Origin: Proteiniphilum saccharofermentans
Lineage (GTDB): Bacteria > Bacteroidota > Bacteroidia > Bacteroidales > Dysgonomonadaceae
NCBI RefSeq assembly: GCF_900095135.1
Contig: NZ_LT605205.1
Coordinates: 2,666,001-2,730,000 of the forward strand
Reading direction: 5' to 3'
DNA: 64,000 nt
The notes under the pieces are model-generated. The model saw only the letters and a program-made list of their open reading frames with translations, made no database searches and had not been told where the DNA came from. Each line of letters starts with the position of its first letter. Positions within the stretch are counted from its first letter, which is position 1. A program made the translations under genes and the position numbers. Positions 6,509 through 53,001 of this stretch are shown here, one piece after another.

Positions 6509-6509
6509 T

Positions 6510-6558
6510 AATTACTAATTACCAATTACCAATTACCAATTACTAATTACTAATTACC
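6510..6558. repeat. Period-7 tandem repeat, unit AATTACN
   Basis: Seven consecutive 7-base units, each AATTACC or AATTACT, beginning two bases after the stop codon of the OadG-type gene. It belongs to the set of intergenic period-7/8 repeats found throughout the window. Confidence 0.85.
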
Positions 6559-43789: not shown

Positions 43790-45058
43790 TTATTTGCTGT
43801 TAGCCAGCAAATAAGCTTCCGCTTCTACGTTCCACAATCCCTTATGGCGACTACAGATAACAGCCAGTTCTTTAAAAAGTTCGTTGGTCCCACCAAGCTT
43901 TTCAAAGTCGGATATCGGAGTGAGCGGCATATCAATATGTGTATAGATCAGCTTCTTTCCACCCGGGATATTGGGCAGGTTGTTGGTCGCATCGGCTACT
44001 GCATTCAATCCACCAATATGGGTAATCAGTCCGGCTGGATCAAGTCCTTTACTCATAATATCGAGTGCTTCCACCATATCGTCGTTATTACCTCCACTGG
44101 TGCCGACAATATGTGTATAGGCATAATGTACATTGTAGAAATTGAACGTGGCGCTGAAATTGGGGTCACTGGGTCCGGCAAAGAAATTGAGGCAACCGTC
44201 GAATGCCAGTATAGCATCCCCCTGCTCTACTACCGGCCTGACCGGTGCAAAGACAAACACATCATCATAACCGGAATTACCACTCAGAGTTTTCAGTTCT
44301 TTCACCGGGTCTTCCATCGCACGGGTATTGATATAGTGGAGATCAATTCCCCTAGATGCGGCAAATTCAACCGTATAAATTGAGGCAGCTCTGTCTAACC
44401 GAGCCTGGTCTACATCGGTCACTACTAACAGTGATGGTTTACGGTCTTCACGATGGAGCACATAGTTGATAGCTGCAAGTCCCATTGGACCGACACCCGC
44501 AAGAATAGCCATCTTTCCTCCATCCACAATCTCCATCTTGTGCTTATAACTGCCGGGAGTAGTATGGTAGTTGGCATGCATCGCACCGATTACACAGGAG
44601 AGCGGCTCTGCCAGCGATGCAGGATAATATCCCTCACCCGTAAATTTCAATAAGCAGTCCTGCTCCATCACTTCGTTAGGAATAATCACATAGGTGGCAT
44701 CTCCGCCGATATATTTGTAACTATAACCGGGAGCGCTCAGAATACCAACGGGGCCATTCTCGTAGTAGAGCGCCGGTTGAATGGAGAACTTATCCCCTGC
44801 TTTAAATTTATGAGCCCATTGGGAACCCACTTCCAGCAATTCACCGGCGAATTCATGACCGATGATAATAGGATTTTCCGCTACGTCATCGGGAATACGC
44901 TTGTGATCCGTCCCTTGTGAAGAAGCTTTATAGGATGACATGCACAATGAATCGGTCACCACTTTGGCCAGGATTTCATCCTCTTTGATGGGCGGCAAAT
45001 CAAATTCTTCCAGACGCAAGTCTTTTTTGCCGTACAATCTAACTGCTCTCGTTTTCAT
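43790..45058 (-). CDS. Zinc-type dehydrogenase, L-sorbose-1-phosphate-reductase-like
   Basis: 422 residues from the ATG at 45058 (MKTRAVRLYGKKDLRLEEF); an upstream in-frame start at 45085 adds nine residues of low value. A medium-chain dehydrogenase: CMSSYKA and IIIGHEFAGE supply zinc ligands, AEPLSCVIGAMHANY is a conserved loop, and AILAGVGPMGLAAINY is the NAD(P)-binding glycine motif (about 185-200). The start resembles SorE, which turns L-sorbose 1-phosphate into glucitol 6-phosphate; that assignment is by memory of the family. It lies in an aldolase operon, so a ketose phosphate substrate fits. Confidence 0.8.
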   Translation of the reverse strand: MKTRAVRLYGKKDLRLEEFDLPPIKEDEILAKVVTDSLCMSSYKASSQGTDHKRIPDDVAENPIIIGHEFAGELLEVGSQWAHKFKAGDKFSIQPALYYENGPVGILSAPGYSYKYIGGDATYVIIPNEVMEQDCLLKFTGEGYYPASLAEPLSCVIGAMHANYHTTPGSYKHKMEIVDGGKMAILAGVGPMGLAAINYVLHREDRKPSLLVVTDVDQARLDRAASIYTVEFAASRGIDLHYINTRAMEDPVKELKTLSGNSGYDDVFVFAPVRPVVEQGDAILAFDGCLNFFAGPSDPNFSATFNFYNVHYAYTHIVGTSGGNNDDMVEALDIMSKGLDPAGLITHIGGLNAVADATNNLPNIPGGKKLIYTHIDMPLTPISDFEKLGGTNELFKELAVICSRHKGLWNVEAEAYLLANSK

Positions 45059-45070
45059 ATAATTATTGTT

Positions 45071-45102
45071 AGAGCCAAGAACCAAGATCCAAGAATCAAG
45101 AC
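45071..45102. repeat. Left boundary period-7 repeat of the S23-type gene unit
   Basis: Units GAGCCAA, GAACCAA, GATCCAA, GAATCAA in a row. The first 16 bases recur at 52823. It is the inverted counterpart of the repeat at 45504-45534, so the S23-type gene lies between inverted repeats. Confidence 0.85.
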
Positions 45103-45143
45103 ATGAGAGTCATGATTTAGGACGGTTATATGACAATTTTATA

Positions 45144-45491
45144 CTATAAAGTGTCCTTGAAACCATTTATCATACGCTGCAATTCTGATAGTTTTTGTTG
45201 GAATTGTTCATATGTTTCAGCTTCAATATATGATAATTTAAAAGATACCAGTAACTCTGTCTCTAATTCATAAGCGGATCCAAGTGATATTTCAAGAAAA
45301 CGTGCAAAATCTTTATTACTTGACTTTGCTGAACCTTCGGCAATATTAGTAGGTATGGAAACTGCAGCTCTTTGCATTTGAGTAACCAATCCGAAACGTT
45401 CAATTTGAGGAAGCCTATTGACTAGCCGGTATATATCAGCAACAAATTCCACTGATTTATTCCAAATATCTAATTTTTTAAAATTATGCAT
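45144..45491 (-). CDS. Four-helix bundle protein (S23 / 23S-IVS family)
   Basis: 115 residues. The family pattern is complete: LDIWNKSVEFVADIYRLVNRLPQIERFGLVTQMQRAAVSIPTNIAEGSAK is split here as LDIWNKSVEF (7-16), FGLVTQMQRAAVSIPTNIAEG (about 33-53) and FARFLEISLGSAYELETEL (about 62-80). These small proteins were first seen in intervening sequences of 23S rRNA genes and are related to the Avd proteins of diversity-generating retroelements; their job is largely unknown. It sits inside a sugar operon with which it has no evident link and is bounded by inverted period-7 repeats. Confidence 0.9.
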   Translation of the reverse strand: MHNFKKLDIWNKSVEFVADIYRLVNRLPQIERFGLVTQMQRAAVSIPTNIAEGSAKSSNKDFARFLEISLGSAYELETELLVSFKLSYIEAETYEQFQQKLSELQRMINGFKDTL

Positions 45492-45503
45492 CTCAACTTG
45501 TCC

Positions 45504-45534
45504 TTTGTCTTGAATCTTGGTTCTTGATTCTTTT
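45504..45534. repeat. Right boundary period-7 repeat of the S23-type gene unit
   Basis: Units GTCTTGA, ATCTTGG, TTCTTGA in a row, the reverse complement of the left-boundary type. The first 17 bases (TTTGTCTTGAATCTTGG) recur at 52971. It ends three bases from the stop codon of the aldolase/dehydrogenase gene. Confidence 0.85.
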
Positions 45535-45536
45535 GT

Positions 45537-47537
45537 CTAAGAAAGCATCACCTGCCCGCCGGTAATCGGCAAAGCCTGCCCCGTCTCACCGCACTGCTCC
45601 ATCAGGTAAAGGACTCCCTTGGTTACATCCTCGGGCGTACATCCTTTTCCCATCGGGACTTTAGATAAATAGAACGCTTTCACATCCTCTATAGTTTTTG
45701 CTCCCGGCACCTTACCTGCTTTCAGGTATTGCACAAAGAGCCCGTTTTCCGGATCACTCCAGAGGGGTCCTTCATAGAAGTTTCCGGGACAAATGGCATT
45801 GACTTTGATACGGTCTGGCGCCAATTCCAAAGCAAAAGACTGGGTAAGCCCGATACCCCCGAATTTCCCTCCTGCATAGGCAAAATTGGCTTTACTGCCT
45901 TGTAAACCCGACTTCGAATTAATCTGGATGATATCGGCATAATAATCGACATAAGCATACTTTGTCTGCAACTTCATGACCTTGCTGACCATTTTCGTGC
46001 AATAAAAATAGGCGCTGTAATTTATTTTGGTGACGAAATCAAAATTTTCCGGTGTCATATCATCCAGGCCACCAGCGCGAAGTACACCTGCGTTACTGAT
46101 AAAGCAATCGATTGCTCCAAATTGGCACACCGTTTCGTGGATAAGATTCTCCAGGCTTGCTATCTCTGCCACATTTGTCTTTACGAAAAAAGCCCTGTTG
46201 CTTTTTACAATAGTATTGAATTTTTCTGCCGTCATTTTACCCACCTCTTCATTCAGGTCGGCAATCACAATATTAGCTCCTTCCTGTAACAGGCATCGTC
46301 CGATCCCCTCTCCGAAACCCTGGGCAGCACCGGTAATCACAATGGTTTTATTTTCCGCACGTCCCCGGGATATCCTAGCCGACACGCTACGACGATAATT
46401 CTCCACCTCCCAGTTGTCGATAAAATCTATCTGTTCCTGTGTCATTGGATGTGGACCTCCAAATGAATGGGCAAGATATGCGACCTTCATCGCATCTTCA
46501 AACACATCCAGAATGATATCGCACTGCCCGGCATTATCTCCTACGGCGACCAACCCGATCCCTTTTATCAGTATCACTTTAGGTTGGTAACCCAATTTAT
46601 CCGTAAAAGCAGGAATTACTTTCTGTGCCTCTTCCAACACGGCTTCGGGTGTCTCATCGTTCAGGAAAATATAATTCGATTTGCAATAAACAATGGCATC
46701 AGGCGTAAATGGTTTGGCAATATCCCGTTGTTTACCGGGATTGTCGTAAAAATATTTGATCAGTTCGTTTTTGCGTACTTTCAACGTTTTCAATCCGTTG
46801 CTTGATAGCATCATCCTCAATGCAGGCAGGATCTCTTCTGTGCAGTGACAAGTCTTTCTTTCTCCCATAAGTAACGGAGTAGAAACTGCCTGTTCCAGCT
46901 TTTGAAAGATTTCAGCATAGATCGATTGGATCTCGGCAATAGTATTCGCCGCGACAAAGATACCATGATTTTGCAGCCAGATTGCCTGCGGCTCCTCACC
47001 ATAAGCCGACCGATATCCTCTGATCCGGTCATAGACCTTTTTAAAAAGCACATAGCCCGGATCAGTATATTCCACATACAATGCTTTTTCACCGAAAAGC
47101 CGTTTCAATTCAGCTTCCGCATTCTGTGCACACATCAACCCGTTCACTGCTGTCGGATGCAGGTGTACCACAAAAGGATAGTCGATTATATTGTGCATCG
47201 ATGTCTCCACCGAAGGACGTCTCCCCTTAGTGAGGGTAGCTTCGGCCAGATCATTCTTCACCTGCTCTTCCCTCTCTGCCGGATCTGTACTATATATTTT
47301 CTCCGACATGCTGTCGAGTTTATTTCTGTCGAGCACTGCAAATCCCTCTTCGGTTATTGTAGCCAATGCAGCACCACTGGCCTTCACCCATATCTTTTCT
47401 TTGTTCTTGAAGGATGTATTACCACCACCGGCAATCACAAAACGGCTGTCCTGCCCGTAAAAACGTGATATATAAATTAAATCCCGTATTCCAAAAATAT
47501 CGTTCCCAGGGAGAAAGGTTTGAGAATGCTGTTCCAT
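45537..47537 (-). CDS. Bifunctional aldolase / short-chain dehydrogenase
   Basis: 666 residues. Residues about 1-390 are a class II aldolase domain (VIAGGGNTSFKN, VVHLHPTAVNGLM with zinc histidines, WLQNHGIFVA), and about 400-660 are a short-chain dehydrogenase (IVITGAAQGFGEGIG, NAGVLRAGG, and the Tyr-Lys pair YAGGK). The arrangement is that of RhaEW-type enzymes, which cleave rhamnulose 1-phosphate and oxidise the resulting lactaldehyde. A rhamnulokinase gene begins at the far end of the window, but the neighbours here do not include a rhamnose isomerase, so another ketose 1-phosphate is possible. Confidence 0.87.
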   Translation of the reverse strand: MEQHSQTFLPGNDIFGIRDLIYISRFYGQDSRFVIAGGGNTSFKNKEKIWVKASGAALATITEEGFAVLDRNKLDSMSEKIYSTDPAEREEQVKNDLAEATLTKGRRPSVETSMHNIIDYPFVVHLHPTAVNGLMCAQNAEAELKRLFGEKALYVEYTDPGYVLFKKVYDRIRGYRSAYGEEPQAIWLQNHGIFVAANTIAEIQSIYAEIFQKLEQAVSTPLLMGERKTCHCTEEILPALRMMLSSNGLKTLKVRKNELIKYFYDNPGKQRDIAKPFTPDAIVYCKSNYIFLNDETPEAVLEEAQKVIPAFTDKLGYQPKVILIKGIGLVAVGDNAGQCDIILDVFEDAMKVAYLAHSFGGPHPMTQEQIDFIDNWEVENYRRSVSARISRGRAENKTIVITGAAQGFGEGIGRCLLQEGANIVIADLNEEVGKMTAEKFNTIVKSNRAFFVKTNVAEIASLENLIHETVCQFGAIDCFISNAGVLRAGGLDDMTPENFDFVTKINYSAYFYCTKMVSKVMKLQTKYAYVDYYADIIQINSKSGLQGSKANFAYAGGKFGGIGLTQSFALELAPDRIKVNAICPGNFYEGPLWSDPENGLFVQYLKAGKVPGAKTIEDVKAFYLSKVPMGKGCTPEDVTKGVLYLMEQCGETGQALPITGGQVMLS

Positions 47538-51401: not shown

Positions 51402-51450
51402 TTAGTTCTTAATTCTAAGTTCCAAGTTGTAAGTTGTAAGTTCTAATACT
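51402..51450. repeat. Period-7 repeat between E3 and E1 genes
   Basis: Seven units: TTAGTTC, TTAATTC, TAAGTTC, CAAGTTG, TAAGTTG, TAAGTTC, TAATACT, ending nine bases from the dihydrolipoyl dehydrogenase stop. Confidence 0.85.
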
Positions 51451-52822: not shown

Positions 52823-53001
52823 TAGAGCCAAGAACCAGGAATCAAGAGCCAGGATTATAAAGGCTATATTCAGACCGGTTACCGGCATAATTTATTATTT
52901 AAAACATTTCTAAAACCATTTACCATATATAACAACCAAGCACCCAACAATTCATTAAAACTTTGTATCTTTTGTCTTGAATCTTGGCTCTTGGTTCTTA
53001 T
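52823..53001 (-). pseudogene. Internally deleted second copy of the S23-type unit
   Basis: The E3-E2 gap is bounded by the same repeats as the intact S23-type locus: the left end shares AGAGCCAAGAACCA with 45071, the right end shares TTTGTCTTGAATCTTGG with 45504. Between them the minus strand still reads MVNGFRNVL and stop, against MINGFKDTL and stop in the intact gene, and the flanking 45 bases align well with the 3' flank there. The other end keeps a start-like ATACAAAGTTTTAA against ATGCATAATTTTAA. About 95 codons in between are gone. This is the layout of a non-autonomous deletion derivative. Confidence 0.65.

Follow-up and report, generated by a model that had tools for sequence, protein, structure and literature searches.

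S23-family genes enclosed by clade-specific inverted heptad arms suggest a previously undescribed type of minimal mobile element in bacteria

The DNA analysed here is a single stretch of 64,000 nucleotides, referred to as the window, in which a small gene lies between an alcohol dehydrogenase gene and an aldolase gene and is enclosed by two inverted arrays of heptads (on the plus strand, CAAGANN to the left of the gene and TCTTGNN to its right). The features needed in what follows are, in window coordinates:

43790-45058, zinc alcohol dehydrogenase (ADH), ATG at 45058 (profile search)
45059-45536, minus strand, the whole unit, from the ADH start codon to the aldolase stop codon; missing from the orthologous gaps of relatives
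45071-45103, plus strand, 3' arm, the inverted copy (TCTTGNN in the S23 sense), with its outer edge some 13 nt upstream of the ADH start codon
45144-45491, minus strand, S23 (23S_rRNA_IVP) four-helix-bundle gene, 115 aa; PF05635, TIGR02436
45505-45536, minus strand, 5' arm (in the S23 sense), CAAGANN heptads directly past the aldolase stop codon (repeat and pattern searches)
45537-47537, bifunctional class II aldolase/short-chain dehydrogenase (SDR), stop codon at 45537-45539 (profile search)
52829-52854 (plus strand) and 52968-53000 (minus strand), second inverted CAAGANN pair, whose interior shows a 60-nt alignment with the S23 unit, in the same register

The gene is a member of the S23 family, as proposed in an earlier, sequence-only reading of this DNA, and it scores far above the curated cut-offs of both PF05635 (E=1.4e-38, 131.8 bits, cut-off 33.8) and TIGR02436, four helix bundle (4e-37, 126.8 bits, cut-off 24). 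Its relatives in the PDB are 2gsc (XCC0516) and 2rld. Profile searches recognised no catalytic, transposase or nuclease domain in the protein, and open reading frames and profile searches together indicate that S23 is the sole gene within the unit, which agrees with the absence of a recognisable transposase noted in that reading and leads us to reject an insertion sequence. One of the neighbours had been taken for an E3 gene, which the profile searches correct to the zinc ADH next to the bifunctional aldolase/SDR. Avd of the diversity-generating retroelements (DGRs), together with bAvd, is a four-helix family related to S23, and the window protein stays below the cut-offs of these profiles (38.3 bits against the 80 required by the Avd profile NF033474, and 22 bits with the Avd-related PF22296). 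A DGR was rejected on this lack of an Avd-level match; next to the unit there was no recognisable reverse transcriptase, template or variable repeat, and no Rfam match was found in 44500-46000.

The arrays have a period of 7 nt (4.4 copies at 45071-45101 on the plus strand, 3.6 copies at 45508-45532 on the minus strand) and the arms constitute a 38-nt inverted repeat with 82% complementarity (45066-45103 and 45506-45543). They extend to the ADH start and the aldolase stop, so that the description of inverted period-7 ends nearly touching the neighbouring genes holds. The pattern CAAGANNCAAGANNCAAGA, with up to two mismatches, matches 13 times in the window versus 0.14 times expected from shuffles, and in the predicted RNA fold the two arms pair as a long stem enclosing the entire S23 ORF (z=-3.98).

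Are such arms peculiar to the window? S23 genes are found in 111 of 148 genomes of the same phylum, with up to 15 copies each, and the scan of a genome collection for one S23 clade gave loci in many phyla. Arms were assessed by comparing the left arm with the reverse-complemented right arm, at a score of at least 15 (a threshold picked by the analyst), and matched inverted arms were found in 20 of 35 units of the genus, 29 of 68 of the phylum, 32 of 72 from many phyla and 19 of 24 from gammaproteobacteria and cyanobacterial plasmids. The corresponding values were 4/35, 3/68 and 6/72 (genus, phylum and many phyla, respectively) for the control in direct orientation, and 4/105, 2/204 and 17/216 for arms mismatched across units. 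With related loci included, inverted matched arms surround 100 of 199 S23 genes versus 10 of 311 non-S23 genes in the same loci, and within the window 1 of 50 other genes was positive. At this score, clear matched arms are lacking around about half of the S23 genes, and in some S23 clades the arms are octads instead of heptads. The nuclease family PF13366 (GxxExxY) was uninformative as a comparator, giving no matches in the genus or the controls, and the mixed S23 alignment offered no stretch of sufficient conservation for scanning. Judging from these genomes, the association of S23 with inverted tandem heptads or octads is a general pattern in Bacteroidota and more than ten other phyla.

These controls bear on the most trivial explanation, that replication slippage in AT-rich intergenic DNA produces heptads near any gene and the pattern is a low-complexity artefact. 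Heptameric repeats are indeed more frequent than expected in many bacterial genomes (cited in PMC4679880 and PMC4692102), and the flanks of other genes next to S23, used as a control at one stage, were weakly tandem in 33 of 104 cases, a value confounded by neighbouring arrays, for which reason it was replaced by the inverted-arm test on non-S23 genes. Nevertheless, the shuffles and the orientation, cross-unit and non-S23 controls all fall far below S23, so that a chance origin of the arms was rejected and the artefact as a whole is considered highly improbable.

Furthermore, the type of heptad follows the clade of the S23 protein. Arm similarity correlates with S23 identity (Mantel r=0.27, a value reached in 0 of 999 permutations), and whereas about 1% of pairs share an arm when S23 identity is below 45%, 26% do so at 55-60% and 47% at 60-70%; the wrong-orientation control also rises, but far less. 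TYAGCNN arms, for instance, occur in 30 of 67 members of one clade versus 2 of 101 others, and record titles place this clade in Bacteroidota, Chloroflexota, Cyanobacteria, Planctomycetota, Acidobacteriota, Nitrospirota, Omnitrophota and other groups. CANAGNNN arms characterize 7 of 11 members of their clade versus 0 of 157 others, AGTATNN arms are present in 6 of 16 members of theirs (and also in sister clades), and CAAGANN arms in 3 of the 4 members of the clade to which the window S23 belongs. Being matched left to right and specific in sequence to the S23 clade, the arms appear to belong to the S23 gene, and the simplest reading of clade-bound heptads would be co-transfer of gene and arms, or their strong co-maintenance.

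The orthologous gap in relatives shows the unit as a discrete entity. The aldolase was located in 61 genomes (the own genome and relatives), and the gap to ADH, which includes the stop codon, was read where the aldolase was found. Four genomes hold the full S23 unit (gap of 481 bp in G000, G021 and G010, and of 454 bp in G012), and in 14 relatives the gap measures 16-38 bp and contains neither the S23 gene nor heptads, which are the empty sites that the sequence-only reading had proposed to look for. Three more relatives carry remnants: the 144-bp gap of G007 retains one heptad and a fragment from the 5' end of S23, and those of G002 and G024 retain 3' pieces of S23 together with the 3' heptads. 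On the aldolase tree the state of the unit requires at least three changes, and the G024 remnant is nested in a supported clade of otherwise empty genomes; the support of the ADH tree is too weak to decide the history of the unit state. Comparison of empty and filled sites, whose junctions are blurred by divergence, revealed no recognisable target-site duplication. G000 and G021 are 99% identical in ADH and S23 and only 92% in the aldolase, a contrast that suggests a recombination boundary near the unit, and recombination or loss could be the source of part of the presence/absence pattern. In a few genomes the gap is occupied by other sequence. That of G016 (L044), for example, contains a short CAAGA-like remnant followed by an insert of 1,400 bp, whose ORF is a different one and looks DUF1016-type by eye, and G020 (L047) keeps a 3' piece of the G016-type insert; the junction seems to be used by different inserts.

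The same behaviour is found at other places in the genus, where PF05635 has 46 copies scattered over 21 of 39 genomes, most of them with flanks of tandem period 7 or 8 that differ between units and are matched and inverted within each unit. At nine further S23 loci the orthologous gaps were read in G000, G021, G010, G012 and G007: one locus has a 16-bp gap in G012 versus 482 and 585 bp in G021 and G010, respectively, and another has 45 bp in G012 versus 544 bp in G007. In decayed forms the gene is gone while both arms remain, as in the case of a 63-bp remnant in G010. Both presence or absence at orthologous sites and copies elsewhere are thus seen, as would be expected of a mobile unit in general. 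The sequence-only reading would have been abandoned had every relative carried gene and repeats at this one place, without empty sites or further copies, and the genomes contradict both parts. What stands of the small mobile unit that it suggested is the gain and loss of a discrete unit, to which arms accompanying the gene across phyla can be added, mobility being read from genome comparison.

The units also show an orientation bias within operons. Between co-oriented neighbours S23 lies in sense 137 times and in antisense 13 times (related loci included), the 5' arm often starts at the stop codon of the upstream gene, and the 3' arm finishes a short distance ahead of the following start codon. 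This bias and placement could derive from the insertion route or from selection for expression. In the host genome, heptads reach well beyond S23: there are 136 CAAGANN matches (with up to one mismatch) versus 11 for the reversed control, and S23 itself is represented by one full gene and one truncated, more distant copy. Most of these CAAGANN matches stand as single arrays that end in TCTAA some 14-24 nt upstream of a start codon, and S23 relics were mostly undetectable at solo arrays, the only one in the window being 52829-53000. The interior of that inverted pair aligns to the S23 unit with a modest score of 18, higher than all 300 shuffles, which makes it a probable decayed copy of the unit. 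Other heptad families were also noticed. A seven-copy AATTACN array (window 6509-6557) is of the type of S23-clade arms in G010 (L095), and AATTACN-type heptads also lie near the truncated second S23 of the own genome (genome 2518172-2518423). An AGTTCTA array at 51404-51446, with no S23 nearby, is of the type of the TTAGAAC arms of units in G021 and G010 (L084, L085). In the G010 genome the reversed CAAGANN control yields 108 matches, and therefore another heptad family of different sequence must be abundant there.

Do these data require mobility at all? The heptads might instead be regulatory sites through which S23, or another protein, controls the mRNA of its own operon, the distribution being due to vertical inheritance or homologous recombination with frequent loss. 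The pairing of the arms in the transcript and the sense bias would fit such a role, as would the position of solo arrays before start codons, which is also that of the TAACTGA arrays of Beggiatoaceae (PMC4679880), and the linked similarity of ADH suggests recombination of a block. We nevertheless regard this explanation as unlikely, given the clean 16-38 bp empty sites in many lineages, the unrelated operons hit in each genome, the arms on both sides in inverted orientation, and the way in which one S23 clade recurs with one and the same heptad across unrelated operons in many phyla. A second alternative makes the arrays the mobile (or slippage-made) elements and S23 a passenger captured between two inverted ones. 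In its favour, arrays far outnumber S23 (136 matches versus one full gene), some inverted pairs have no S23, and one DUF58 gene beside S23 is flanked by the same heptad; but the tie between arm type and S23 clade across phyla and the rarity of inverted matched arms around other genes (10/311) argue against it, and we rate it a shade lower than the regulatory one. The reading that we favour, and hold as probable, is that of a discrete minimal selfish unit of about 0.45 kb, consisting of S23 and its inverted heptad arms, which is gained and lost whole at operon junctions.

How could a unit of this size persist? Genome comparison shows its architecture, gain and loss, empty sites, clade-specific arms and codirectionality, and on that ground a mechanism can be outlined. 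Units would be gained or lost whole, or would decay by deletion, at junctions of co-transcribed genes, mostly in sense, and the operon transcript would fold into a long hairpin with the arms as stem and the S23 ORF as loop, as in the intervening sequences (IVSs) of 23S rRNA. S23, a four-helix bundle related to the Avd of DGRs, probably recognises its own heptads, which it may bind as RNA or DNA, and it may thereby keep the unit intact or guide its rare re-insertion with the help of enzymes of the host or of one provided in trans; the solo arrays would then be decayed units or arms spread in trans. Taken to its full extent, this would make S23 and its cognate arms a bacteria-wide, transposase-less class of mobile elements, in which S23 reads the heptad under a per-clade code, and which seeded the arrays of Xanthomonas, Cyanobacteria, Beggiatoaceae and Bacteroidota, an extension whose chances we judge to be evenly balanced. 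Small dispersed inverted repeats accompanied by one gene possibly acting on them are known from REP/BIME repeats with RAYT transposases and from MITEs. Unlike these, S23 has no transposase or nuclease domain, and the ends of its unit are tandem heptads instead of fixed palindromes or terminal repeats.

The closest known counterpart is the 23S rRNA IVS, exemplified by that of Coxiella burnetii, with 428 nt and an S23 ORF within terminal inverted repeats (PMC4990558); insertions in CPR rRNA sometimes encode an S23-type protein as well (PMC11270868). Like the window unit, the IVS has about 430 nt, one S23 ORF and stem-forming terminal inverted repeats, and it shares with S23 units a scattered distribution, having long been suspected to be selfish or mobile (PMC4990558). 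However, the window unit has protein-coding genes of an operon as neighbours and does not sit in an rRNA helix, and its arms are clade-specific tandem heptads; because of its location outside rRNA, it is classed as working like an IVS and not as one. Intergenic heptamer arrays have in turn been described for TAACTGA in Beggiatoaceae, Cyanobacteria and Bacteroidetes (PMC4679880), and for GGGAATC in Xanthomonas and GGGGAYT in Nostoc (PMC4692102). These, and the cyanobacterial STRRs, resemble the arms in their period of 7, their intergenic position near start codons and, in Xanthomonas, their frequent occurrence as inverted pairs, but neither report (PMC4679880, PMC4692102) names S23 or a similar protein as partner, whereas the window arrays bracket an S23 gene.

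Rehm et al. (PMC4692102) counted 186 GGGAATC heptad arrays in Xanthomonas campestris and 70 cases of inverted pairs, and do not mention S23; XCC0516 (PDB 2gsc) is an S23 relative of that species. The unit model predicts that genomes with the GGGAATC heptad should hold S23 flanked by arms of this heptad. In a pattern search, GGGANTN arrays turned up in 11 of 369 gammaproteobacterial genomes, and PF05635 was present in 8 of 10 array-selected genomes, compared with 17 of 369 for an XCC0516-like query at E<=1e-20, the two thresholds not being equal. The predicted arrangement was found in the gammaproteobacterium G578, where inverted GGGAATC arms enclose a truncated S23 within accB-accC, and G420 has a scrap of S23 between GGGACTC arms inside carA-carB (gene names inferred from translated ends).

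The S23 family and the heptamer arrays are each known, and what would be new is the element class, that is, a gene with clade-specific inverted heptad arms at operon junctions. Our search of the open-access literature found no paper linking the two, although an earlier report may exist, and the comparisons suggest that S23-heptad units are minimal mobile elements of a type not described before. They bring together two long-standing puzzles, namely the scattered orphan S23 genes and the heptamer arrays of distant phyla for which there was 'no mechanism evident' (PMC4679880). Should gene and arms form a single unit, S23 would have a role that can be tested, namely that of recognising a clade-specific heptad. 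There would also be a candidate source for the arrays, and bacteria would possess a mobile element of about 450 bp; the table of clades and heptads would give immediate binding predictions.

Some individual loci deserve mention. In L253 (1949-2813) a DUF58/VWA gene beside S23 has the same GTCAGAG-type heptads on its own two sides and may form with it a composite unit with cargo. On two cyanobacterial plasmids (L317, L318), heptad-flanked S23 genes lie between cas6 and cas4 of CRISPR loci, that of L318 being type I-D by its cas1d. In three gammaproteobacterial genomes (L326, L328, L329), a related S23 group lies just after the apparent end of rpsI and just before a tRNA-like sequence, a conserved insertion place.
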